DNA of 64,000 nucleotides from Tubulanus polymorphus (Eukaryota; Nemertea; Palaeonemertea; Tubulaniformes; Tubulanidae). Under the pieces are notes generated by a model. The model made no database searches. It had not been told where the DNA came from and saw nothing but the letters and a program-made list of their open reading frames with translations. A program made the translations under genes and the position numbers. Below are positions 29,761 through 64,000 of the stretch, one piece after another. The stretch is from positions 20,023,307 to 20,087,306 of the forward strand of contig NC_134031.1 of assembly GCF_964204645.1 (NCBI RefSeq), in the 5' to 3' direction. The first letter of the stretch is position 1. Each line of letters starts with the position of its first letter.

Positions 29761-30098
29761 ATATTAAAAAAGTGATTTCTACCTGAATGACCCTGTTTGA
29801 TCTGTATGGGTAAACACATGTTTTGTTGGCTGACTCGTACTGATAACACTTTAACAAGCTCCGTCTGACAAAGCTGTGAATAAAGAGAGAATCTTTTGTT
29901 CGTGTGAAAAATCAACTGCTCATTTTTCCAGATGGAATATATCGGGATTCATGTACTGCCGGTTGAAGGTCTCCGGTGTAGTAAAGAGCTTACATGAAAA
30001 TCACCGGCCAATTTATCATGCATCTTACTGAGAAAAACTGTTCTTATCAATTATTAGTGATTCACATAATAAGTCTCATTATTGAATACAGAGAAGTT

Positions 30099-31370
30099 AC
30101 CGATAGAGGTAGACTGGGAAGGTTTATACTGGTACAGGTAGACTCGGAAGGTTTATACCGATAGAGGTAGACTCGGAAGGTTTATACCGATAGAGGTAGA
30201 CTCGGAAGGTTTATACCGATAGAGGTAGACTCGGAAGGTTTATACCGATAGAGGTAGACTCGGAAGGTTTATACCGATAGAGGTAGACTCGGAAGGTTTA
30301 TACCGATAGAGGTAGACTCGGAAGGTTTATACCGATAGAGGTAGACTCGGAAGGTTTATACCGATAGAGGTAGACTCGGAAGGTTTATACCGATAGAGGT
30401 AGACTCGGAAGGTTTATACCGATAGAGGTAGACTCGGAAGGTTTATACCGATAGAGGTAGACTCGGAAGGTTTATACCGATAGAGGTAGACTCGGAAGGT
30501 TTATACCAATACAGGTAGACTCGGAAGGTTTATACCGATAGAGGTAGACTCGGAAGGTTTATACCGATAGAGGTAGACTCGGAAGGTTTATACCGATAGA
30601 GGTAGACTCGGAAGGTTTATACCGATACAGGTAGACTGGGAAGGTTTATACCGATACAGGTAGACTCGGAAGGTTTATACCGATAGAGGTAGACTCGGAA
30701 GGTTTATACCGATAGAGGTAGACTCGGAAGGTTTATACCGATACAGGTAGACTGGGAAGGTTTATACCGATACAGGTAGACTCGGAAGGTTTATACCGAT
30801 AGAGGTAGACTCGGAAGGTTTATACCGATAGAGGTAGACTCGGAAGGTTTATACCAATACAGGTAGACTCGGAAGGTTTATACCGATAGAGGTAGACTCG
30901 GAAGGTTTATAGCGATAGAGGTAGACTCGGAAGGTTTATACCGATAGAGGTAGACTCGGAAGGTTTATACCGATAGAGGTAGACTCGGAAGGTTTATACC
31001 GATACAGGTAGACTCGGAAGGTTTATACCGATACAGGTAGACTGGGAAGGTTTATACCGATACAGGTAGACTCGGAAGGTTTGTACCGATAGAGGTAGAC
31101 TCGGAAGGTTTATACTGGTACAGGTAGACTCGGAAGGTTTATACCGATAGAGGTAGACTCGGAAGGTTTATAGCGATAGAGGTAGACTCGGAAGGTTTAT
31201 ACCGATAGAGGTAGACTCGGAAGGTTTATACTGGTACAGGTAGACTCGGAAGGTTTATACCGATAGAGGTAGACTCGGAAGGTTTATAGCGATAGAGGTA
31301 GACTCGGAAGGTTTATACCGATAGAGGTAGACTCGGAAGGTTTATACTGGTACAGGTAGACTCGGAAGGT
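30099..31370. repeat. Minisatellite, 29-bp unit, about 44 copies
   Basis: Unit contains GAGGTAGACTCGGAAGGTTT followed by ATACCGATA. Variants (GATACAGG with ACTGGG, TACTGGTACAGG, CAATACAGG, TAGCGATAG) recur in short blocks, which indicates multi-unit amplification, especially toward 31080-31370. Confidence 0.97.
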
Positions 31371-31372
31371 TA

Positions 31373-35299: not shown

Positions 35300-35445
35300 C
35301 TCGTAGTTCAGCCTGTCGTAGTTCAGCCTGTCGTAGTATTGCTGTCGTACTACTGCTGTCGTAGTATTGCTGTCATAGTACTGCTGTCGTAGTTCAGGCT
35401 GTCGTAGTACTGCTGTCGTAGTTTAGGCTGTCGTAGTACTGCTGC
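35300..35445. repeat. Short tandem repeat, 14-15-bp unit
   Basis: About ten copies of CTGTCGTAGTACTG and variants (CTGTCGTAGTTCAGG). Confidence 0.85.
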
Positions 35446-36887: not shown

Positions 36888-39800
36888 ATGGGATGTGGAC
36901 GCAGTAAAGCTTTGTCCAAAAGTGACTCAGAATCCGACAATGATCTATATACGAAAAATGACAAGAAAACTAATCAAAGTAAGCATGAGTACCTGGTACC
37001 TGGTAAAAAAACCTCATTCACACCAATTTTTCATTTGTTCATTCTAATTTTACTCGGACCTGAAACGAACCAACTGAAAAAACCTATCAAAATGATAACT
37101 CCAATTTTCTATCGATAACTGAGTTGATATGACAGACAGATAGCGGATTGCACTGAAGTTTGATTTTCAATATTTTTTGTGACGCCGAAAACTTTTCTAC
37201 TTCAGCAGCCATGATTTTATAATGCAGGCCCTCTAAGATTTGAACGTACGAAGAACACTGATAATACATCGAATCAATGAATGAATTTAATTTCTCAATA
37301 AATATTCAAGTGATGTACATACTCACAGAACGGGAACGTTAAGAGAATATTGAGCGCATAAAGACTTGAGAAATCTAGAGAGCTGTACCACGAGAATAGG
37401 GTGGCCAAACAAACGAGATGATTATAGAAAATAAATACAGGAATACTCGATACATAGGCCCTGCACCGATAATCGATGTGATGAAAATATATGTAAAATA
37501 TGATAAATCAATAATCTAAGAAAGGAAATTATCGATGAAATTTTGAACGGGAAATATTTTGTTTTCAGAAACGAATTCTAAGAGTAAAACGACGATTGAC
37601 GGCAGCGTAGGTAACGCGTCTGCCATGTCGTTTAGCGCCGCTGCTGGTGACTCACAAGATACCGTTTCCATGCAAACTATGTTCAGCATGAACAGTTTGA
37701 ATCACCGTGCGATTCATTACAACAACGGAGCCGGAGCTGGAGCTGGAGCTGGAGGAGGGTCGGCGAATGACGTCGGTCAACAACCGCTGGAGCAACAACA
37801 ACGAAACTCGTTTTCGAATTTAGATTCGAATGCGGGACGTAAAACCCCATCACCTCAAAATCAGCAGGTAACGTTTAGATGATCGCAGTTCACATTGAAA
37901 ATGGACTAGTAATATCTTTAACCCAGGGGTTAACTCAATTGACTATGAATTGGGTTTGCCTTTCGGGTATAAGTTAATACCAGTCACTAAAACTAGTCCC
38001 AGGTTTATCTGGAGCCAAAGCCTTTGCAAAACATTAAGAAATTTTGAAAAAACCTCAAGTTGAGATGATGAATAATCCCACAATGACGATATTTATCTGA
38101 TTTTCCTGATAACCTTCTCAAACAATCTCGAAACAGTCTGATGAATAAACTTCGAAATATCATCATTATGGGATTAATCTTTTAATGTTCATCACTGTCA
38201 GAAAACCGTCGAAAACTGTTGATCGAAATAGATATAGTTGAACTGGAGGCGTACTGATCCCCTGGTGTATACGGAGTCCCGTGGTGTATATGGAGTCCCT
38301 TGGAGTCCCGTGGTGTATATGGAGTCCCTTGGAGTCCCGTGGTGTATATGGAGTCCCTTGGAGTCCCGTGGTGTATATGGAGTCCCTTGGAGTCCCGTGG
38401 TGTATATGGAGTCCCTTGGAGTCCCCTGGTGTATATGGATAACCTATGAAAAAAGAGTTATTTACCAGGAATGATTATTTACCAGGAATGATTAATCAAC
38501 TGTAGGATGACAGCTCTTTGCAATCGCCTGGTCTCTATTCCTTCTCTATAACACTAGTAAATTGCCTACATTGATTTACACAATTCCGCCGTCGCCGTCA
38601 TCACTGCCGTCAATGTTGTGCTAGAGTTCATTTATCGCTGACGAGAATTACAAGAGGATTTGTCGAATTGAGCAGAAAACGACTCGTTTTTGACGGCAAT
38701 TTTTAAGCTCGTATTCGATGTGAAGTATATGAGATAATAGACACTACTCTACTTACTTTCATATCCGTTTCCATGGTGATTGGCTTCATTTCGAGTGTTA
38801 CATTTTCCGATTTATCTAGCGATGATGATATATTTGATTGGTTCGTTTACAGAAACTTGTTGTATTTAAAAGATTAGGCATTACGAGACAGTTTGGCAGT
38901 TCATATGAAATCTACGTACATTCATACGGTGTTAAACTATGCAGCTGATTAATCAAAAGTGAAAGGTCCGAGCCATAGCGGGGCTAAATGCGCATACTTA
39001 AATCCTAATATGGTCTTAATTCTAAACACTGGTCTTACGTTGTAGAACTAAGATGGTCCTTAAACCCTTTCAGTGCGTCTGCATGGCAGTGCGGTGTATA
39101 AGACTCCGGCGCTTTCGGGAATTAATTAGTCAGCTCTGAACGGGTCAAATCTAAGTACCAACTGGATCCTAGGAGTGATCCTTGTTTTCTTTTGAAAACT
39201 ATGATTTTAATCGTTGAAGAACCTTCGTAATTCGAGAAATCTAAAACCGTTTTCTTATTTTCATTTCAGGATCGAAAGACTGCGAAATCAGCTTTCAGTA
39301 ACAAGCTCGACCCCGCAAATGGCCCGGTGCAATTAAATCTGTAGGTATTTCTGTTTTTCGTCGCCTATCTTTAAATCATTCTATGTCCGTTGCTTTTAGC
39401 GTGACATCAAATGGCCGAAAGTAATATGTGTAATAGCCCGGCAGTAATGGCTCACAGTTATTTATGTAGCATCATCAACTTTGTTTTGTTTATAAACCTC
39501 CTGTAGCGGGAAAGTTTTATATAGCTAAAATAGAAAAATGTCAACGGCTTCTCCGATTTTTTTTCTTGCTGCTGTGTCTGAATTGCTGATTATGAACAAT
39601 TGTAATATAAAAGGCTGTTGTAGGAGCCTTTAAGGAACATCCACATTATAAACAGGATACAGTCACTAACCTGGAAATCAGGGAAAAAGTCGGGGACATT
39701 TCTTTTCTTTAAGAAAGTCAGGAGAATTTTATGAAAACGCTAGAAATAAGAGAAAATCAGGGAAATTTGTTGAGATTGCTATATCACAGGTAAAACCAGT

Positions 39801-40987
39801 TTCCATCTTTGCTTTACATATTTGACTGCGTTAAATGATTGGATTCTTATCAGATCGAGTCAGGTAAAACAACATACATATCAGGGAATAGTCAGGGGAA
39901 AAGCAAGTCTAATAAGAGTAGCCCACTGATAAATTTTAAGTTTATCAATATGGGCTACTGGTATGTTTATCAAAGTGTATAAACATGTAGAAATTAATTC
40001 AGAAATAAAACTCCTCTTTCGATCCTGTTGTTAACGCGTTTCTCTTGATTGCAGCAATTTTTGCTTACGGCCGTAACATTTCAATCTACCAATAGTATTC
40101 CTTTACATCAGTTGATTACTACTTCACTTTATACCATAATTCCAGTCGTTGAGAGTTTCTTTTCCCCGTGTAAAACCCGATACCATCGACGCCGCTGCAG
40201 CTGAAAATCTGAGGCGATAATTTTTTTTCTAATGAGATTTCTCTCCTTTTCAAATGACTGGTAATTGTAGCACGGCGACGCACAGTCAGATAGATTTCTT
40301 CCGAATGTTAGATCGTCGTATCGAAGAGGTAAGCGAACGTATTTTAAGCGGATCGTTTCATGATGTCGTCGTCGTTGTTTCGTTACAGAGGGGTAACTAT
40401 GAGTCAAATTGAATTCTTCCGTTTACTGGACGAAAAAATCGACCAGGTAAAACAACACGCGTCTGACTCGTAGCTGGTTGTGCCGTGTGTTTAATTAGTG
40501 CATACTAAATACATATGAACAAATGATTATATAGTAGGTTAGATAGATACCTCCTCGGTTAAATTTAACCCCGCGATGCATCCTTGAAATAACAAGTTAG
40601 CAAAAGTGCATAACTGTAATTACACATAGAACTGTTTTTAATGAACTAGTGTAACCTATTCAGATTCTCCATGAATATTCTCGTATTCGCGATCTAAATT
40701 GAGAAAACAAAAAACCTAGTTGTAACTTCAAGTCAACATTTAGATCTTTCCATCCCCTATTAGATTTTAGATGATTAAATTTGGTATCATCTGCCCTCGA
40801 ATGTCAGGCGGCCTATTTGAATCGTAATTTGATTTTGACCCGAGTTAAACGTCAGTTCCTAACCCCTTAAATGTCTTATTAGAACCATTAAATGGGAAGC
40901 ATTAAACTGAATGAGAATCAATCAAATGCACTCATTCGATTTGATGTATCTTGGTCGTGTTACTGATGGAATAGATTAGATTAGATT

Positions 40988-41020
<33 letters not shown>

Positions 41021-41750
41021 AGAGGAGGTCAGTTTCACCGATAGTTCCTCAATGTTGTAGAAATTCACGCACGACTTTACCTTTAGTTCACATATTGTAG
41101 CTGCACTCTCTATTTCAGCTTCACATTTCATGCGACTACCTCATTCCTTGAAAACTTGTCTAAATTCAAGAATTATTTTCGTCACGGACTTTGAATCTCC
41201 ACTTTTGCAAATATTTTGTGACAGTCTTTAAAAGATGTCACAAAAGTCAATGTGTTTCTTGTGTGCGACAATGGTTCCTCGCCTCTTCAGCAAGGCTCCC
41301 TTAGATTCAGACTTTATGTTTATAGAATACTGATAATAAGATTTGGGACTGTTCATGAAGTGCCTACATCTTAACAAGGACTCTTAGATGAATGGTCCAT
41401 GGTCATTTCACATCGGAATTGCCTATGACTTCCTGCCTTACATATGGAATGTCTTACTTAATTTCCCAAACAAACACCCGTGTCAAGGTCCATTTTATTT
41501 CAAGACGTAACTGCTGATTTTAAATGAAATAATCAGGAATTTTGAAGTCAAATTCTCTTGTAAATCTCTTTGATATTATCTGTTCGAGGTAATAGTATGA
41601 ACTCTTGAGTGACGGCGAATGTTATGATGAAATTTAAGTTATTCCACTCAGAGTTCTCACATTTCGAGACCAGAAAATCATCTGAACTTGAACAAATTAT
41701 CTTTTTTACAGGGTCCGGATTATTTGTCAGGGGAAGAGGATAACACGTAG
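36888..41750 (+). CDS. C1orf21-like lipid-anchored protein with alternative penultimate exons
   Basis: Function unknown in the family. Exons: 36888-36978, 37569-37867, 39270-39340, then either 40271-40328 (A) or 40389-40446 (B), then 41712-41750. With one of A/B the protein is 185 residues. It starts MGCGRSKAL, fitting N-myristoylation at Gly2 and palmitoylation at Cys3. The middle is low-complexity (GA repeats, Q-rich). The C-terminus with exon B, SQIEFFRLLDEKIDQ then GPDYLSGEEDNT, matches the end of human C1orf21 (SQQEFFRMLDEKIEK...EEEDIT), which has 121 residues. Exon A reads SQIDFFRMLDRRIEE. A and B are each 58 nt with identical phases, and using both gives a stop after seven codons of B. 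AATAAA is at 41829-41834. The 5' UTR is not defined. Confidence 0.88.
38260..38438. repeat. Minisatellite in intron 2 of the C1orf21-like gene, 29-bp unit
   Basis: About six copies of GGAGTCCCGTGGTGTATAT with an alternating GGAGTCCCTT block. Confidence 0.9.
39655..39915 (+). repeat. Dispersed TCAGGGAA-type repeat in intron 3 of the C1orf21-like gene
   Basis: ACCTGGAAATCAGGGAAAAA, AAATCAGGGAAATTTG and ATATCAGGGAATAGTC motifs, shared with introns of CFAP74 and DIS3L2. Confidence 0.55.
40271..40328 (+). CDS. Alternative exon A of the C1orf21-like gene
   Basis: Acceptor GTAATTGTAG and donor GTAAGC flank 58 nt. Phase in is 2 and phase out is 0, and it encodes LTATHSQIDFFRMLDRRIEE. It is 11/20 identical to exon B, keeping SQI, FFR, LD and I. 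Confidence 0.85.
40389..40446 (+). CDS. Alternative exon B of the C1orf21-like gene
   Basis: Acceptor TGTTTCGTTACAG and donor GTAAAA flank 58 nt, phase 2 to 0, encoding LGVTMSQIEFFRLLDEKIDQ. It is the copy closer to the vertebrate sequence. Only 60 nt (40329-40388) separates it from exon A. Confidence 0.88.
40975..41025. repeat. TTAGA / GA microsatellite
   Basis: TAGATTAGATTAGA followed by (GA)n, in an intron of the C1orf21-like gene. Confidence 0.8.
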
Positions 41751-42464
41751 CAGTTACCATGGCAATGGAGGATGGTGTGAGTCGGTTTAAAACGAGTGAA
41801 AGTAAAAAAAAGATGATGACGACATCAAAATAAAACTTCGATAACCGCAATCACCGCGAGCGAGTTTTACTTGTCGCTATGGAAACGCTGTTTCTGTGGA
41901 AATATGTCAGTTACTATGGAAACATACGATTTCAAGAAGCAACCGAACGGGATTCAGTTCAGAGCGATGTCCTGCCGTTCATTTCATGATATATTTTCTC
42001 GATTGCGTCGAGTTCAAATATAAGGAAAATACGTTCATTCGTTCGTTCGTTCATTACATAAATTTGCGCCGTAAGGATTAAATAAGTTCGTCACGATGAA
42101 TGTGTATTCGCGAATCTCTTTCAGTTTTCGTTTTTGCGTAAAAGTCTCGATGAAATGCCGAGGACGTTGTGAATAGTTACTGTATATTTTGTGATGTACG
42201 TTGAAAGGATACATGTATGAAATTGTTTAGTGCGGCGGTTAATACATACGTTATTTAACACGGAGAACGACGGCGCCACTGTTTCCATGGTAATAGAAAT
42301 ATACGATGAATGATCATTAACAGTTGTAAATATTGTTAAATGGAACTAATTTATTTTTTCAAATGTTTGTAGATACATAAATTATCTGTGTATGTGATCT
42401 GTTGTTAGTTCGGCAGTACAGTATCTGATGAGATGAGTTATTTGTGAGCCTGAATTTGAACTGT

Positions 42465-48064: not shown

Positions 48065-51000
48065 TTAATTCACACTTAGTTCTTCGTTCGCTTCGTTTTT
48101 AGAAATGTGAATAGATTCTCGAGTAACAGAAAACATACCGATGTCATTGATAATTACATCAGCGGTGCTGTTTCCAATAGCATAGTTACACATGTACCTG
48201 CCAACATCCACGTACGATACACCTCCATCATGAAACACATTAAAAAGTTACCGGCTAGGAATTTAAGAAACTTTTAAAACATAAAAAAACAGAAAAATAC
48301 ATTTCAAGAAATTAGTAAGAATGAATAATTCTCCAATACGACGTGAAACACTTACTGTGAATGTAAAATATTAGAAATCGCCCTTTATATTCGCCGACGT
48401 AAAAGTCGTAGTTTGAAGATCGGTTTCCGGATTCGTATCCTTCGTCTAAATGCGAACCGTTCCATATAGGGTACCATACTCCGTTTATACGCCGTAAAAG
48501 CGATGCATTAGGATCTGCCGATTTCTACGAAAAATATTTTAAAAAACCCACGTGATCTGACGATCGTTTTACAATATCCACAAATCTACATCGTATAGAT
48601 ATAGACGTAATTCTTTCCAATTTCTTGAAAAATACTATCAGGGCGGATGTAGGAAAATTCTAAGGCGAGAGACAATTTAAGGGCACCCCTCAAACAAAGC
48701 AGCTACTCCGAAGACCTCAGGTGGGGTTCCGCCGTCTGGGTGGGTTAGATATTTCTAAATTCATCCGAATAGACAAAATTTCCTCTCCTAGAAGATAATT
48801 GTGTCACATCTTAAAATAGAGATCGAACCTGTTATTATCTGATTGGTAGATTTCGTTTGATTTTTAGATTTGGTGTACCTTGCAAACCCACCACACCTGC
48901 CGGGAGCGAAACAGGATTGATTTTGATTCTAAGTTTTAATAATCTTTGCCTTGACAAAAAAGGGGAACCTCGATGGGAATGAAAGGGTCCAGACCACCGA
49001 ACCACCCCCTCGATCCGCCCTGATAATGTAATTCATTATGTAGATTAAGCTAGGGTCTTTATCATTATAGATGCAACATCACTGACCTTGCACCATATTT
49101 TAACCTGATCACCTAGTTTTACGGGCTCGATTCCAGCACCAGGGTCAACAATAATAGCGTTAGGAGCATTTGTGCGGCGGAAATATTCCTTCGCTATGCC
49201 ACATCCTACATTTCAACGAAAAAAAAATAACGGTTTTGCAAATTTTTTTTATTTCATCAAGTTCTATTTCCAAACTGAAAAAGAATCCTCGTGAAGGTCC
49301 ACACAAGATACTTGGAAAAATGATTTCGATTTTAGTTTAAAAATCTGATTGTTAAACAATCAAATACATCATGATAAACATTATCATTAATCATTGTTTG
49401 AATTTAGCGGCTCGAATCATTTCAGTGTTCGAATCCTTAAATCAATGGTCGTTTCCTTTCAGAATATAGCTTTCGATAAACACACCTGACGGAACTATAT
49501 CACGCTTACGACGGTTATGCTACTCGCCGTGGTTGAATTCCCGATAGTTTAAGAATGATCGCTTTTTGTCAGATCGCGCTATTCTTGTGTTTACAGAGAA
49601 CGTAGACAATGGATCAAACGGTCTCTCGGAAAACTCACCAAGAGGGTACAAATTCCAGTGTAAAATCTCTTTATGAATCGACGCTGAGAAGGTATATATT
49701 TCCTAGGATATGAAAGGGCAGTACTTAAATAAATTGAGCTACCGTAGATTTAGATATAATTTAGGTAAGAAAGTTATATTCTTGATAAACATTAATAAAG
49801 CGACTAAAGCCTTGACTTTAAAGCCACTATGTACATGTACTTATATTGATAATCATAATAATATTGGAAATCAAGGTAATTTGCAATCCCCCACAATGGT
49901 CGCGGTAGTTTTCATACCAGTTAGATATCTGTATTTCATAAAGAGGAGTGATATATACGCAGAAATTTCCTCTCCTAGAAGATTATTGGGTCACATCGCT
50001 AGGTTTGATCTTAAAATAGAGATCGAACCTGTTATTATCTGATTGGTAGATTTCGCTTGATTTTTTGATTTGGTGTACCTTGCAAACCCACCACACCTGC
50101 CGGGAGCGAAACAGGATTGAATTTGATTCTAAGTTTTAATAATCTCTGCCTTGACAAAAAAAGGGGAACCTCGATGGGAATGAAAGGGTCCAGACCACCG
50201 AACCACCCCCTCGATCCGCCCTGATAATGTAATTCATTATGAGGGTCTTTATCATTATAGATGCAACATCACTGACCTTGCACCATATTTTAACTTGATC
50301 ACCTAGTTTTACGGGCTCGATTCCAGCACCAGGGTCAACAATGATAGCGTTAGGAGCATTTGTGCGGCGGAAATATTCCTTCGCTATGCCACATCCTACA
50401 TTTCAACGAAAAAAAAATAACGGTTTTGCCAATTTTTTTTATTTCATCAAGTTCTATTTCCAAACTGAAAAAGAATCCTCGTGAAGGTCCACACAAGATA
50501 CTTGGAAAAATAGTTTCGATTTTAGTTTAAAAATCTGATTGTTAAACAATCAAATACATCATGATAAACATTATCATTAATCATTGTTTGAATTTAGCGG
50601 CTCGAATCATTTCAGTGTTCGAATCCTTAAATCAATGGTCGTTTCCTTTCAGAATATAGCTTTCGATAAACACACCTGACGGAACTATATCACGCTTACG
50701 ACGGTTATGCTCCTCGCCGTGGATAAATTCCCGATAGTTTAAGAATGATCGCTTTTTGTCAGATCGCGCTATTCTTGTGTTTACAGAGAACGTAGACAAT
50801 GGAGCAAACGGTCTCTCGGAAAACTCACCAAGAGGGTACAAATTCCAGTGTAAAATCTCTTTATGAATCGACGCTGAGAAGGTATATATTTCCTAGGATA
50901 TGAAAGGGCAGTACTTAAATAAATTGAGCTACCGTAGATTTAGATATAATTTAGGTAAGAAAGTTATATTCTTGATAAACATTAATAAAGCGACTAAAGC

Positions 51001-52581
51001 CTTGACTTTAAAGCCACTATGTACATGTACTTATATTGATAATCATAATAATATTGGAAATCAAGGTAATTTGCAATCCCCCACAATGGTCGCGGTAGTT
51101 TTCATACCAGTTAGATATCTGTATTTCATAAAGAGGAGTGATATATACGCAGAAATTTGCTCTATGGAACTACCATTCATAACTTCATTACACGTATAAT
51201 CTAATCGGAAAGATGGCAATACATTATACGCTAGTTTATTGGTCGGCAGAAATTGAAAATTCATTTATCTACGATGTTAGGAATATGTCGCGAACGCAGT
51301 ACTGGTTGACACTAGTAGTTTTACCGACAGTTATTTTCATCGGTATTTTGGGAAATTCGATGACACTGTTTATCATGCAGATGAAGTTACGCAGACGAAC
51401 GTATTCGGTGTATTTCTCTGTAATCGCCGTAACCGATTCGGTCATTCTCGTATCCAGACTTTTATTTTGGGTGAATTTTATACGAAGATGCTTACAACGA
51501 GAGATTTTGATAACATTTCGTGACACGCCATCGTGCATAGCTTTCAATTATCTACTACACGTTTTCCAGAACGTGTCTTCGTGGTTTATCGCTGTTATAT
51601 CAGTGGAACGCTTGGTCTGTGTGGCGTATCCGTTCTTGACCAGACGCTTAAACCGAGTTAGAACGGCTCGGATCATTGCGATATTAGTAGCTTTAGGATG
51701 CATGCCTTCTGGATTCATATATTTTGTCATCGTTAGATTTTATGCACCGCTGAATCAATGCGTTTACAAAAACATGAATCATTTGAACGCGAGAATAAAA
51801 TTAGTCTTTTCTTTAACAGTTTTCTACGTACCAGCCATCATTATCCTCATAGCAAACATACTGCTTTTGATAATTCTTCGATATCGAAAATTTTCAGGCC
51901 GTCGAAACGAACAAGCAGAAAAGAAAGATTCTATGATGAATAGAGGCGTCATTCTAATGACTTTAGTTGTGACATTTTCATTCCTGTTGTTAGGCGCACC
52001 TATTTGGGTTTTGCAGAGTTTCGTAGCCTATTCGAATCGGCCGAGTGTCAAGATATTAAACGATTTGTTTACTTTGCTTTACGTTGCTAATTACGGTATC
52101 AATTTTTTTATCTATGTCGTCACAGGTGTCGAGATCAGAAATGAATTGTGCAAAATAATCTTATTTTGTTGCTGTTGCAGTCGTTTTCGACAGGATTTTC
52201 GATAATCTTCCGGTTACGATACCTGATAAATAATGATTTTTATACTTAGAAACGCATATTCTATGTAAGTTGTGTCGCTGGAGAAGTTGAGATCACCTCA
52301 ACCGAGTACAACGACACCTTTCTGAATAAGCAGAGAAATATTATTTATAAAATCCGACCGCTTGTTCTATCAAAACACATGGCCCTGTTACAAGATTATT
52401 GCCGACCGCAAATAATGAATTATAGACATTTATGCTCCGATTCATATTCATTTCAATACAAAAATCAAATATACGGAATGATAACTATTTGAAATCATGC
52501 AGTTTAATCAATTAACTTAGATATCAACTGGTTTAACTCACCGAGACAGACTAAAACAGTAATAACAACAATGTTTCTCAT
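48065..52581 (-). CDS. Secreted single-Ig-domain protein (with duplicated exon 2)
   Basis: Exon 1 52581-52542 encodes a signal peptide (MRNIVVITVLVCLG). Exon 2 is present twice, at 50395-50277 (2a) and 49205-49087 (2b). Exon 3 is 48524-48356. The last exon is 48222-48065 with stop TAA and AATAAA at 48053-48048. The result is about 161 residues with one Ig fold: B-strand Cys in QVKIWCK, C-strand Trp in NGVWYPIW and F-strand Cys in VDVGRYMCNYA. The last exon also has a possible donor (ATCG then GTATGT at 48138), which would allow continuation into exons further left. A TATA box lies 50 nt upstream of the ATG. The partner is unknown. The GPCR at 51213 sits in intron 1 on the other strand. Confidence 0.7.
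49087..49205 (-). CDS. Exon 2b of the Ig protein (duplicate copy)
   Basis: 119 nt, phase 1 in, phase 0 out. It differs from exon 2a by two synonymous changes only (CAG/CAA, ATT/ATC). Acceptor and donor (GTCAGT) are intact. Confidence 0.75.
50277..50395 (-). CDS. Exon 2a of the Ig protein
   Basis: 119 nt with acceptor GAAATGTAG and donor GTCAGT. It encodes CGIAKEYFRRTNAPN and then the A'-B strand region ending KIWCK. It is the first copy met after exon 1. Confidence 0.78.
51213..52205 (+). CDS. Rhodopsin-type (class A) orphan GPCR, single exon
   Basis: 330 residues with seven hydrophobic segments. GN(48)S is in TM1 and the TM2 aspartate is in AVTDS (about 75). Cys108 and Cys183 are positioned for the TM3-ECL2 disulfide. 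ERL (132-134) is in place of DRY. The TM6 region is LLLGAPIW and TM7 is N297-F-F-I-Y in place of NPxxY. N24-M-S is an N-glycosylation site in the short N-terminus, and the C-terminal cysteine cluster (319-322) suits palmitoylation. The degenerate DRY and NPxxY motifs fit the expanded protostome orphan/FMRFamide-receptor-like group; the ligand is probably a neuropeptide, which is inference. It is intronless and lies inside intron 1 of the Ig gene on the opposite strand. An alternative start is the ATG of NMSRT (51285). Confidence 0.9.
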   Translation: MAIHYTLVYWSAEIENSFIYDVRNMSRTQYWLTLVVLPTVIFIGILGNSMTLFIMQMKLRRRTYSVYFSVIAVTDSVILVSRLLFWVNFIRRCLQREILITFRDTPSCIAFNYLLHVFQNVSSWFIAVISVERLVCVAYPFLTRRLNRVRTARIIAILVALGCMPSGFIYFVIVRFYAPLNQCVYKNMNHLNARIKLVFSLTVFYVPAIIILIANILLLIILRYRKFSGRRNEQAEKKDSMMNRGVILMTLVVTFSFLLLGAPIWVLQSFVAYSNRPSVKILNDLFTLLYVANYGINFFIYVVTGVEIRNELCKIILFCCCCSRFRQDFR

Positions 52582-58495: not shown

Positions 58496-61400
58496 ATGGC
58501 TAGTTGTACTCCTGGAAATGAGGAGTTACCAGCATCATCAACAGAACAAGATGATGAATTGACTGCAACTGGATCTACTACTGCTGTACCAGAATGTTCT
58601 GTCACAGGTTGCACTCTTGAAGAACCAGCAGACCCAGAGTATACCGAAAAATTGATGACTATTGTCCCAAATACTCTACCAGAATCTACTTTACCAGGTT
58701 GCTCTGAACTGAAAGAAGAATTTGTTGAGGTTACAGCCGATAAAGTAAAACCCAAGAAACAGAATCGCAGAACTAGAAATAGAAGATCTAAAACTGAGCA
58801 ACTAGCAGTGGTAAGTGAGTGATAGGGCCTACCTATTCAAAGGTTTAAATTCCTGTGTGCTACTAAGAGTAATCTTATTATTTGAGCATTGAGAATGAAT
58901 AAGACTTTGTTCACATTGCCAGGCAGGAAAGTGAGTCATTCCAGTGACAAGTGTGAATATCCGGGCTCGGAAGCAATTTTTGAATGCCAATTGCTGATTT
59001 TTGACAGGTTCTAACATGTTGCCACGAATTTACTTCAATTTCCTCAAAAATATGGTATTCATTCAAAGAAAAAACGGCATTCGGTAAATTATTGGCATGG
59101 TTTTTTGCGGTTAAATGATGTATGTGTCCCCTATGGAACAGCGTCTAGATACTAGACAAGCAGTGAACATGTTAATTCACTGCTTTTGGTGAATTTCTGA
59201 ATAATCCTTTTCAGGTTGTGGATGGAGATGTTGAAGATGATGGCTCCGCTGCTGCTGCTGCTGCTAAACGCGTCGAAAAACCAGCTTTAGATAATATTGT
59301 CGTGACCGTATTTAACAAGAAAGTGAAGGGCGGTGAAACGTGTCCGAAAGTGGAACGCATAATTCAGAACCTTTCTCCGGAGAAATCGAAAGGGGACCTC
59401 GAAAAAACCTCGAACTACTGCGGCGATCGACCGGCCAATATTGCTTCTCCGAGTTCTGTTGACGTGCGAAAAATTCATCAAAAAAAAGAAAAAAGTAAAA
59501 GCACTACGAGTTTCGAAATGTCGACAGCCGGTAAGCAGACATACGGTGATCAAATATCGGTCAGTAAAGATGATTTGGATGATAAGTCGGATAAGAAGAC
59601 AAGACGTGGTAATCGAGGTGGTAAGAAGGCTAAAGACGGCAAGAGGGATGAAAGCTGGTCGAAAGACGCCAATCAACCGGGGTTTTCATTATTTCCACTG
59701 AAAGGTGCGAGATCAGCGAAAGAACAGCAGTCGCCTGGTGGGAACGTTGGGTGTTACACGGCGCTAGTGATGAAAAACCAGCGAGCTCAACGCTTCGATC
59801 AACCGTCATGTAGTAAAGATAAATATCGCACAAGGTAGATGTCAATTTTTCCCATTTCGAATTTAGGGTTCTTTCTGATAAGGAAAAGTCAGGGTATTGG
59901 GACTCTTCTTGAAAATCAGATGAAAGTCAGGGAATCTATTGTTGGTTTCTTGTTGTTGGTGATGATGAGTGACGCAATGAACCTCTTGATAAGAAACAGC
60001 TCCCACTGAGGATATCTTATGATTTAATCAGGAAATGGCCAGGGAAATGTCAGAGAATGTTGAATACCCTAACCGTAAGAACATTGCAGTGAAATTGTTA
60101 CTAAAATGGTTGCAATTTCATTGTTCCTTATGTAGATCTTTCATTCGTAAAACAAGATGTATTTCGTTTTTTTATAGGAATGAGTCTTCCTCCAGTGATT
60201 CTACGGTTAAAGGCAATAACGCACCATCTCCACGATCTAAACAACAAAATCCAAATCCGGTATCACAATCTCCAAGAGCTACTGGTAAACAGAAAACTGC
60301 AAATTCTCATCCACAATCTCCTAAAGTTGTTGTACCTACGATGGTTTATGAGAAAGACAAAGGATTTACTTACTACGAAAATGCATTCATACATAGAGAC
60401 ACAGGCTCTGTTACAATGAACTCTGAATCACCTGCACCTAATCCACCTAAAGGTTGGTATAGATTACCCGATTCTGAATGTTCATCAGCCACTCAAAATG
60501 TGCAGAAGCCAAAATCATCGTCAAAATCAAATAAACGAAAGTCAAAACAGCAAAAGTCATCCACAAGTTCACAAGGAGGAGAGACTCCTACATCAGGCGG
60601 CAGTTCACAAGGAGGAGAGACTCCTACATCAGGCGGCAGTTCACAAGGAGGACAGACTCCTAAATCTGGCGGCAGTTCACAAGGAGGACAGGCTCCTAAA
60701 TCTAGGGGTAATTCACAAGGAGGAAAGACTCCTAAATCTGGCGGCAGTTCACAAGGAGGACAGACTCCTCAATCTAGGGGTAATTCACAAGGAGGAAAGA
60801 CTCCTCAACCTGGTGGTAGTAATCAGAGAAAGTCAACAGCAGAGTCTAAAAATGTGATGCCATCTCCTCAAACACCTCGGAGTGATATCGATAATGGACC
60901 TGGTAAATCTAGTGGAAAGCGTAAAAACAATAGGTCTAAACAAAACAAAAGCAGCAAGGTACGTATTAAAATTCCTGTCCAAATCACTGAACACTGCATA
61001 GAAAATACATGGTCATCTATTAATGTTTTAGTCGTATGAGGCTCATTTGCCGGTTGAGATTGTATCTGAAGGGTTGAAAAGAGGCACTATCGTAAAAGGC
61101 ACAATTCGAATTAACCCGAAAAACTACGAGGACGCCTATATTCCACATCCGGTAGGTTATAAAACTAAAGCCTAACTCGGATCGTACTAAGGTCGGTGAT
61201 TCGGTCCTAAGAACACTCATGTCACATCGCGAGGTCGAGTTGCCAATTCAGCCGAGAGTTGAATCTTATGCGAACTGAGTCTTGGCTTTAGATCAGTGAT
61301 TCGTGATGGTTTGAATGAAAACAATTAATACGATCTTCATTTTATAGGACGGTAAATCAGATATCTACATCCGTGGTACGCGTGACAGGAACCGATCACT

Positions 61401-63818
61401 AGAGGGCGATGTTGTAGCCGTTTTACTGAATCCTAGATACGAGTGGAAGGTTAGTATTTTACAATTTTCCGTCCTGGTAAGGTGGGTTTTCTGTTCTCAT
61501 AATTTACTTGCGTTTATCGTGCCAGGTTTTGATGGATGATCTCATCAACTTCGAAGAGAAAGAAACTGTTGTTGAGGATATCGAACAAAAAGAAGATGAT
61601 GTCGTCGTCGAAGCAGATGAAATCATAGTCGAAATGGCAACAGATGACGGCGTCACCGAGGCCGATCCCCTCGGTGACGTGACGCGATCGTTGAAAGCCT
61701 TAGAAATTCATCCGACACAGCCACTGGGAAGTGAGCCTAAACCGGTGCAGAACGGCGAAGGAGATTCGGTGAAATTAGTTACCGATGAATCAAATAAAAT
61801 TGATGAATCTCCGATGAAAAAAACTCCTCGCAAAAATCGTGATTCGCGATTCTCGTACACTCCGCTGAAACATCTGAAATCGGCGAGTCCAGTCGTTCAG
61901 AAATTATTCGCAGATCAGACAAAATCGGATAAATATCTACAAAGAACTGGAAAGGTTTGTGCAAATTTTTCTCTTCTATCAGGGTTCGTAGCGAGTCTGA
62001 CTAAATTTCAATAAAGTGCTTTTGAAAAATTTAGGATGGACCCTGATTAGTGCTAACTTCGATCCCAAAAGTGCTGAAAAATACATACTTTATGGACTCG
62101 CTGTGATCATAATAAAATTCATCGGACAATTTTATCGCAGTCTATTAGGTCTTTCGCTTTACTGCTTGATCAAAATTTAAACTGGCGATTTCTTTCAGAA
62201 TAAGTTTTAAATTTTGATTGCAAATGCATTTTCTTATTTCATCACTTAATCGTTGATTGAGAAAAATACCGGAAACAATGTCATTTGATTCAAGACAAAG
62301 TGCTGACTTAAGACTTCCACAGTCCGACTCCTACATTAATGACTGTTATAATGTTCTGCTGCGTTTCTCGTAGGTTGTTTACATACTTGAGAAAGTTCAT
62401 TCTCGTGCGACGTCCGGATACCTGAAACTGATGGCCGATAAAAACAAATCAGTCGCGTTGTTTTCACCGATAGATTATCGAATGCCTCGTATGAAGATTC
62501 CTATGTCTCAGTGTCCTGAAGGTATGATTTCTGTTTCGAACCCTCCTTGGTGCAAGGTTCTTAATGATCACGAAAAATCAGGGAATTCCTAAATTCATTT
62601 TTCCGTGCAGAGAAAAAAGTCATAGAATTTGACTTTTTGTTGTCTTGTTGTTCGATTTCTAGTGACGAGTGGCACAAGGAACCTCTTGATAAGAAACAGC
62701 CCCCACTGATGATATCTTATAATCTGATCAGGAAATATTTGGTCAATGGTCAGGGAAATGTCAGGGAATTTTTAATTATTCGCTTATCTGAAGGAACCCT
62801 GCCAGTTGTCATTGAAGTATTTTTTCTATGGATCACTGGCAGATTTTAGCTACAGTAGACTCTGCCTTCTTGAGTATGGGTTAACTCCGTAAACTACTAA
62901 AGCCAGTGAATTTTACTAATTAAAAATCATTTGGAAAACCTTCTATTCCCTTGTAATGCTATTGAAACTGATTGTTCTGAACTTCTTGAACTTAGTAGAA
63001 CATGTTTTTTCCAATATGTTTTAGGGTTTGCTGAGCGACCTGACGATTTCGCTAATACTTTATTTATTGCTCGCGTCTTGAACTGGGAAGAAAACACGAA
63101 TTTTGCTAACGGGTAAAAACAGTAATGCCGACTAAATCTATCCACTAGAAATTCTGTAAAATTGTTGTTGATTTAATGAAATTCTTCTCTTCTTAGGCAA
63201 TTGATGAAAAGTTTGGGTCAGGCTGGAGAAATTGAACCGGAAACTGAAGCTATTCTCATGTCTTACGACGTCGATTTTTCTGAATTCTCCGACGAGGTGA
63301 GATTTGCTCTATTGAACTCAATAGAGAAATTATCAAAATCAATGGAAATATTCTTTGTAACGCCACGTTTTTCATTGGTTCCAACCGTGGCATTATAAAA
63401 GGACTTTTACTGACAGCTATTCTGTAATGACGTTATCTCTTCAGGCAACGGACTGTCTACCGAAAAACCTACCGTGGAAAATACCCAACAACGAGTTCGA
63501 ATCGCGCAAAGATCTACGGAAAAACTGTGTATTCACGATTGATCCTGCAACTGCTCGCGATCTCGACGATGCTTTATCATGTGAATGTGTTAGTGATGGT
63601 ACGTTCACTGTTGTTTATTTGGACAGGGGGCGCTGCTTACCTGGAAATCAGGGAAAAGTCCGGATTATTTTGTAAAAAAAAAGGATTGTTATTGTTTATA
63701 AACAGGTGTTTATGAAATCGGAGTTCACATAGCAGACGTCAGTTTCTTCGTGAATGAATTGACTGAACTCGATCGCGTCGCTAGTAACCGAGCAACAAGT
63801 GTTTATCTAATTCAAAAG
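58496..63818 (+). CDS. DIS3L2: DIS3L2, 3'-5' exoribonuclease (cut by right edge)
   Basis: Cytoplasmic exosome-independent RNase II-type exonuclease that degrades uridylated RNAs. Exons: 58496-58810, 59215-59834, 60178-60958, 61032-61151, 61348-61449, 61526-61954, 62374-62521, 63025-63112, 63197-63296, 63445-63598, 63706-63818 (990 residues so far). Residues 1-572 are a disordered, K/S/Q-rich extension. From 573 the cold-shock domains follow ([28 protein letters not shown], then [19 protein letters not shown]). Then come [31 protein letters not shown] and the RNB domain with [17 protein letters not shown]. The active-site aspartates (934, 940, 942, 943) are present. The insert between the two CSDs is acidic. 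The ATG at 58496 is the first in the exon. The rest of RNB and the S1 domain lie beyond 64000. Confidence 0.95.
59870..60070 (+). repeat. TCAGGGAA-type repeat in DIS3L2 intron 2
   Basis: Shares CCTCTTGATAAGAAACAGC, CCCACTGAGGATATCTTATG and CAGGGAAATGTCAG with the copy at 62560-62790. Confidence 0.7.
60566..60817 (+). repeat. DIS3L2: Coding 36-bp repeat in the DIS3L2 N-terminal extension
   Basis: Seven in-frame copies at exactly 36-bp spacing (60566, 60602, 60638, 60674, 60710, 60746, 60782), encoding 12-residue units of the form S(S/N)SQGG(E/Q/K)(T/A)P(T/K/Q)S(G/R)G. Nucleotide identity between copies is high, so the expansion is young. Confidence 0.95.
62560..62790 (+). repeat. TCAGGGAA-type repeat in DIS3L2 intron 7
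   Basis: Homologous to 59870-60070 (GAACCTCTTGATAAGAAACA, CCCACTGATGATATCTTATA, CAGGGAAATGTCAGGG). Confidence 0.7.
63625..63665 (+). repeat. Fragment of the TCAGGGAA repeat in a 107-bp DIS3L2 intron
   Basis: GGCGCTGCTTACCTGGAAAT and CAGGGAAAAGTCCGG. The insert makes up much of the intron between the exons ending 63598 and starting 63706. Confidence 0.5.
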
Positions 63819-64000
63819 GTCAGTGTCATCACACATCGTGAATATGTAATCCTGTATTTTGCACACTGGACTAATATCGAAATTTTTCATCGCATTGATT
63901 TTGAAAGAATGTGAAAATTCGGTAAAATCATTAAAAATGTTTGAAAAATTCGAGAAAATCAATGACAGGAAAAACAGTAAAAATTTCACTTTCAAATTTG

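Follow-up and report, generated by a model that had tools for sequence, protein, structure and literature searches.

The stretch of DNA analysed here (the window, 64 kb) contained a gene whose coding exons are listed in Table 1, among them two neighbouring exons, A and B. Splicing in silico with either A or B gave a protein of 185 residues, starting with MGCGRSK and ending with GPDYLSGEEDNT; Gly2 and Cys3 of this start presumably fit an acylation signal. Splice sites were scored on a scale of our own, built from consensus frequencies. An earlier note on this DNA had placed both exons at these coordinates, each with 58 nt, phase 2 in, phase 0 out and good splice sites: the GT-AG borders and the phases were confirmed in the sequence, and the acceptor of A proved weak on our scale. 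A and B were adjacent, internal and homologous, and alike in length, phase and splice-site type, i.e. they showed the structural features by which mutually exclusive exons (MXE) are recognized.

Table 1. Coordinates (positions in the window) of the coding exons of the C1orf21-type gene and of the intron between A and B. Splice-site scores are on our own scale.
Feature	Position	Strand	Evidence and remarks
Coding exon 1	36888..36978	+	Start, MGCGRSK...; open reading frame and donor AAA/GTAAGC
Coding exon 2	37569..37867	+	Open reading frame between AG and GT
Coding exon 3, upstream partner of A/B	39270..39340	+	Weak donor TCT/GTAGGT, 3.2
Alternative exon A, 58 nt (LTATHSQIDFFRMLDRRIEE)	40271..40328	+	Acceptor weak (3.0), donor strong (10.3)
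Intron between A and B, 60 nt	40329..40388	+	Below all 36 homology-resolved introns in length
Alternative exon B, 58 nt (LGVTMSQIEFFRLLDEKIDQ)	40389..40446	+	Acceptor fair (7.9), donor good (8.0)
Last coding exon (GPDYLSGEEDNT, then stop)	41712..41750	+	Translation, Pfam match, genome match of C-terminal query

Further downstream, from about 58500 to 64000, a multi-exon gene ran off the window; Pfam recognized an RNB domain in it (30.3 bits, cut-off 29.3), and we take it to be a DIS3L2-like exoribonuclease gene.

The whole protein scored 42.3 bits with A and 39.3 bits with B on PF15389 (DUF4612, C1orf21), above the curated cut-off of 27, and its 32-residue C-terminus alone scored 39.7 bits (A) and 37.7 bits (B) on DUF4612; the protein spliced without either exon had no DUF4612 match. 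The curated rule for PF15389 concerns the score. A match along the full length of the profile, an additional criterion of our own, was not seen: positions 58-115 of the 115 matched alone, the N-terminal half being diverged, though its start was MGCG. In the 268-Mb assembly, exons A and B were the only matches of the PF15389 profile at E values up to 10; searched singly and genome-wide, A scored 21.8 bits (E about 0.06) and B 22.0 bits (E about 0.05), both below the Pfam cut-off. A 33-aa query against the genome (E up to 10) matched A together with the last exon and missed B, a 15-aa query had no match in the genome, and the 33-aa C-terminus had none in a PDB sequence search at E up to 10.

The human C1orf21 sequence scored 149.5 bits on PF15389, so the name of C1orf21 homologue, given to the gene in the earlier note, is sound: both isoforms exceed the cut-off of the model which the human protein also fits. 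The two proteins shared the MGC start, the SQxEFFRxLDxxI motif and a G-x-DY-x-S-x-EED tail, but the human protein is known with a single version of the motif, versus two here. Over the 15 residues of the motif, A agreed with the human sequence at 10 positions and B at 11, and A agreed with B at 9.

The peptides of A and B were identical at 11 of 20 residues, as had been claimed, and the nucleotide sequences at 32 of 58 positions. S-Q-I-x-F-F-R-x-L-D-x-x-I was common to both, and the differences (9 of 20 positions) surrounded these residues. The peptide pair had a BLOSUM62 score of +59; 200,000 stretches of 20 codons without a stop, drawn at random from the window, had a mean of -17.8 (SD 9.3). 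After A and B, the next-best of the stop-free AG-58nt-GT candidates in the whole window (48 on the forward and 72 on the reverse strand) scored +5, and the best other six-frame stretch of the window, splice sites not being required, +30. No third copy of the exon was found within the 64-kb window, which, together with the nucleotide identity of 32/58, makes an assembly artefact unlikely. The earlier note had also described A as the more basic form (RR in place of EK); this was right in direction, but the difference amounts to one charge in the 15-residue motif (net -1 in A versus -2 in B). The helix amphipathy of the motif versions was not significant with respect to shuffles (0.12 and 0.18).

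Between A and B, pS was 0.88 and pN 0.32 over the 20 codons (Fisher p = 0.001 on rounded counts), and 0.96 and 0.26, respectively, over the 15 codons of the motif (p = 0.0002, also on rounded counts); of the 11 codons that kept their residue, 7 were changed. Synonymous sites were saturated, and the split between A and B is therefore old, with a date that these sites no longer hold. On the evidence of the sequence, the exon was duplicated long ago, and purifying selection has kept A and B protein-coding. The Pfam model was further used for swaps between the versions, one at a time, at 8 of the 9 differing positions of the A peptide (39.7 bits): M13 to L cost 4.0 bits, R17 to K gained 2.9 and the other six changed the score by -0.9 to +0.4, while the A peptide with both R16E and R17K reached 43.0 bits. 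Alanine at four hydrophobic positions of the A peptide cost 20.7 bits, against 4.0 at most for the eight A/B swaps. The profile-preferred Met was kept by A and the profile-preferred Lys by B, so neither copy is simply ancestral.

These data bear on the most serious alternative, in which a single copy is used and the other is a fossil exon still looking intact. The weak acceptor of A would agree with such a reading, but conservation of the protein across saturated synonymous change, the near-equal Pfam scores (by which neither copy has drifted far) and the intact splice sites and frame of both copies argue against it, and we regard it as improbable.

Because 58 equals 1 modulo 3, double inclusion or double skipping of the exons shifts the frame; the pair thus has the form of frame exclusion known for MXE (length not a multiple of three, non-productive double use). 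Translation reproduced the stop predicted by the earlier note for joint use, after seven codons of B (R-G-N-Y-E-S-N). The accompanying claim, that use of neither exon also breaks the frame, held as far as the frame itself was concerned, which shifted into an unrelated tail of 25 residues; what follows from it is loss of the C-terminus, destruction of the mRNA being less than certain. Junction-dependent decay obeys a 50-55-nt rule. The double-inclusion stop was 34 nt upstream of the last junction and the double-skip stop lay in the last exon, so neither is a clear target of this decay, and a broken frame means here a lost or truncated C-terminus. The 60-nt intron had no in-frame stop in translation, so its retention would be expected to reach the same stop in B.

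The length of this intron was compared with 36 introns resolved by homology, by matching adjacent exons to Pfam profiles in four loci for myosin and four for CCT; the sample is small and the best-scoring splice choices were taken. In a first pass, 16 of 30 neighbouring myosin matches had no GT-AG solution; the splice search was then widened and the four CCT loci were added. Pairs with a profile gap above 8, the four tandem myosin copies described below, and three further matches (108-167 and 576-644 of locus L066, 609-679 of locus L068) were left out. All 36 remaining pairs were solved, some of them with weak sites (e.g. the 465-, 341- and 186-nt introns and one of the two 77-nt introns). The intron between A and B was shorter than all of them; the shortest had 77 nt, and 16 of the 36 formed a short class of 77-98 nt. 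For two introns of 80 nt, the second-best splice choices gave 74 and 71 nt. Three introns of the neighbouring RNB gene, resolved by eye, had 73, 76 and 84 nt. Taken together, the nineteen short introns had a mean of 84 nt (SD 6.4), and 60 nt is 3.8 SD below this mean.

One of the RNB introns (61450-61525, 76 nt) had an in-frame alternative donor at 61477, which would reduce it to 49 nt and add nine residues (VSILQFSVL) after WK. The 76-nt reading is preferred, since V comes straight after WK in human DIS3L2. Given the possible 49-nt reading, introns near 60 nt may occur in this animal. Ab initio scans for short introns were without power: a first scan gave 2 candidates (decoys 1, 1, 0 and 0), a second one 10 (decoys 12, 8, 2, 5 and 1) and, at laxer settings, 45 (decoys 35, 30, 18, 45 and 20). 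The lax scan contained, at decoy level, a 49-nt candidate, which is the one made by the donor at 61477, one of 51 nt from a single place present in two loci, and one of 56 nt. The earlier statement that the intron is probably too short to splice has the support of a modest sample: at 60 nt the intron is below 36 of 36, but a neighbouring intron can be read as 49 nt.

Except for two beside the acceptor (57 and 59 nt), the adenines of the 60-nt intron were 3-35 nt from the donor, the best branch-like one, a guess from the motif, at 32 nt. A passage of PMC7969005 cites about 50 nt as the threshold for the distance from donor to branch point and shows that OGDH exons 4a and 4b use branch points below it. 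As in 4a/4b, the intron between A and B is short and its candidate branch adenines lie less than about 50 nt from the donor; the A/B pair differs in belonging to an unrelated gene and in that its branch points are motif guesses.

Another conceivable lock, in place of spacing, is RNA pairing over a long range as in clusters of the Dscam type, here between the tract before B and positions 41802-41827. Duplex energies were computed for 15 region pairs, with 60 shuffles each. Two arms of 26 nt, 40361-40386 in the tract before B and 41802-41827 in the last exon, were 77% complementary, and the duplex of their regions had an energy of -40.2, compared with a shuffle mean of -34.4 (z -2.4), a value equalled by 1 of 60 shuffles. 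Second came the pairing of the last exon with the region that follows B, at a z of -1.6 (2 of 60 shuffles). However, this was the sole pair of the 15 with a z below -2, the arms consisted of GTC/GAC-rich simple sequence, and the stretch before A had no pairing of equal strength. One success in 15 tests on GTC-rich sequence makes the pairing only a lead, and we consider it very unlikely to be what enforces the choice.

Least probable of all is use of B mainly from an internal start, with the in-frame ATG before SQIEFF giving a 28-residue protein without the N-terminus: the motif in B does open with ATG AGT CAA, but the phase-2 acceptor and the length of B exactly match those of A, as splicing from exon 3 needs.

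Together, membership in PF15389, the old and selected duplication, the frame exclusion and the very short intron support mutually exclusive exons: A and B are very probably an old tandem duplicate of the core-motif exon of DUF4612/C1orf21, of which each mRNA would take exactly one. The earlier note had seen the one-of-two choice as enforced by frame and spacing alike, and both fit, the frame from translation and the spacing from the intron sample. Joining of A to B would be disfavoured at 60 nt, below the usual short-intron range of the genome, where any branch adenine would be so near the donor of A that both splice-site complexes could not assemble; a transcript escaping by double inclusion or double skipping would be out of frame, as the length of 58 nt dictates. 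To judge by the weak acceptor of A and the equally weak donor that precedes it in exon 3, B would be the easier choice, and A would need help.

Like the MXE clusters of Pillmann et al. 2011 (PMC3228551), as characterized in part of that paper, A and B have the same length, the same phases and compatible splice sites, and are homologous, adjacent and internal; a passage of the same paper reports these features for only 0.56% (90/16,180) of non-exclusive fly X exons, a figure which supports the prediction that A and B are mutually exclusive. They differ from those clusters in that one-per-transcript use is, for A and B, a prediction from sequence. According to passages of PMC5740500, 60% of human clusters hold exons whose length is no multiple of three, and potential steric interference is seen in 9%; the A/B locus bears the frame mark, and probably the steric mark too.

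Another likeness is with the clusters of muscle myosin heavy chain (PMC3912159), where alternative copies of an exon for a conserved motif stand in tandem and share their end codon and phase, and which are described there outside chordates. A myosin gene of the assembly (C4:4125126-4126944, reverse strand, locus L065) carried one myosin-head exon in four tandem versions, with profile starts at 112-121 and all with profile end 152, each ending in NNNSSRF with a GTAAGT donor. The exon is presumably the switch-1 region, and the cluster is probably mutually exclusive, of the known muscle-Mhc kind, to judge by our analysis, suggesting that such exclusive exons are not foreign to this animal. Its presence also makes the animal probably an invertebrate, so that the lack of an A/B switch in vertebrates need not in itself surprise. 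From one start to the next, the four copies were about 550-610 nt apart, which excludes a too-short intron as their exclusion device and sets them apart from A and B.

To our knowledge, no mechanism has been described for the C1orf21 family. In the protein studied here, an acylated N-terminus (from MGCG) would hold the molecule at membranes, the motif would be a contact site, and the exon choice would swap residues around the fixed S-Q-I-x-F-F-R-x-L-D-x-x-I, likely changing the partner or the affinity. A wider proposal can be made tentatively, and is somewhat doubtful: the switch may be old, perhaps shared by a wide range of invertebrates, with vertebrates having either lost it or never acquired it, the gene product being a membrane-anchored adapter of C1orf21 type with two partner-selecting versions of its motif, enforced by spacing and frame. 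A table row for C1orf21 in PMC10298883 names AKT1, ERBB3, MAP2K1, MET and TGFBR2, and a passage there considers C1orf21 theoretically an adapter or modulator of signalling.

Among the literature matches listed, which covered few subscription papers, no title or abstract opening reported an exon pair in C1orf21, and no literature on DUF4612 by name was found. C1orf21 was not named in the main text of PMC5740500, nor mentioned in the results section of PMC9013439; the gene named in the relevant passage of PMC12851673, a splicing paper, was C1orf213 and not C1orf21. Mutually exclusive exons are well known as a kind; A and B are very probably a further pair, with a probable double lock, in a gene that is itself uncharacterised. 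Two selected versions of the most conserved motif in one gene mark this motif as the likely partner-contact part of the protein, and A and B, different at 9 of 20 positions, are a natural bait pair for finding partners and for deciding which residues matter. With its short intron and frame lock, the gene is also well suited to clean tests of splice exclusion in animals other than vertebrates and flies.

Several other features were noted in the window and in the assembly. Three minisatellites with different units, each with a period of 29 nt, were located at 30098-31371 (43.9 copies), 35313-35444 (4.6 copies) and 38273-38439 (5.8 copies). A segment of about 0.9 kb (about 49050-49980) was repeated 1190 bases downstream (about 50240-51170), with 97-100% identity in the inner 100-base bins, and was directly followed by an open reading frame (51183-52205) for a rhodopsin-type receptor (Pfam 7tm_1). 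Elsewhere in the assembly, a chaperonin (Cpn60) match on contig C31 (7097-8704, reverse strand) lay in a single open frame of 575 aa, which is perhaps bacterial DNA.
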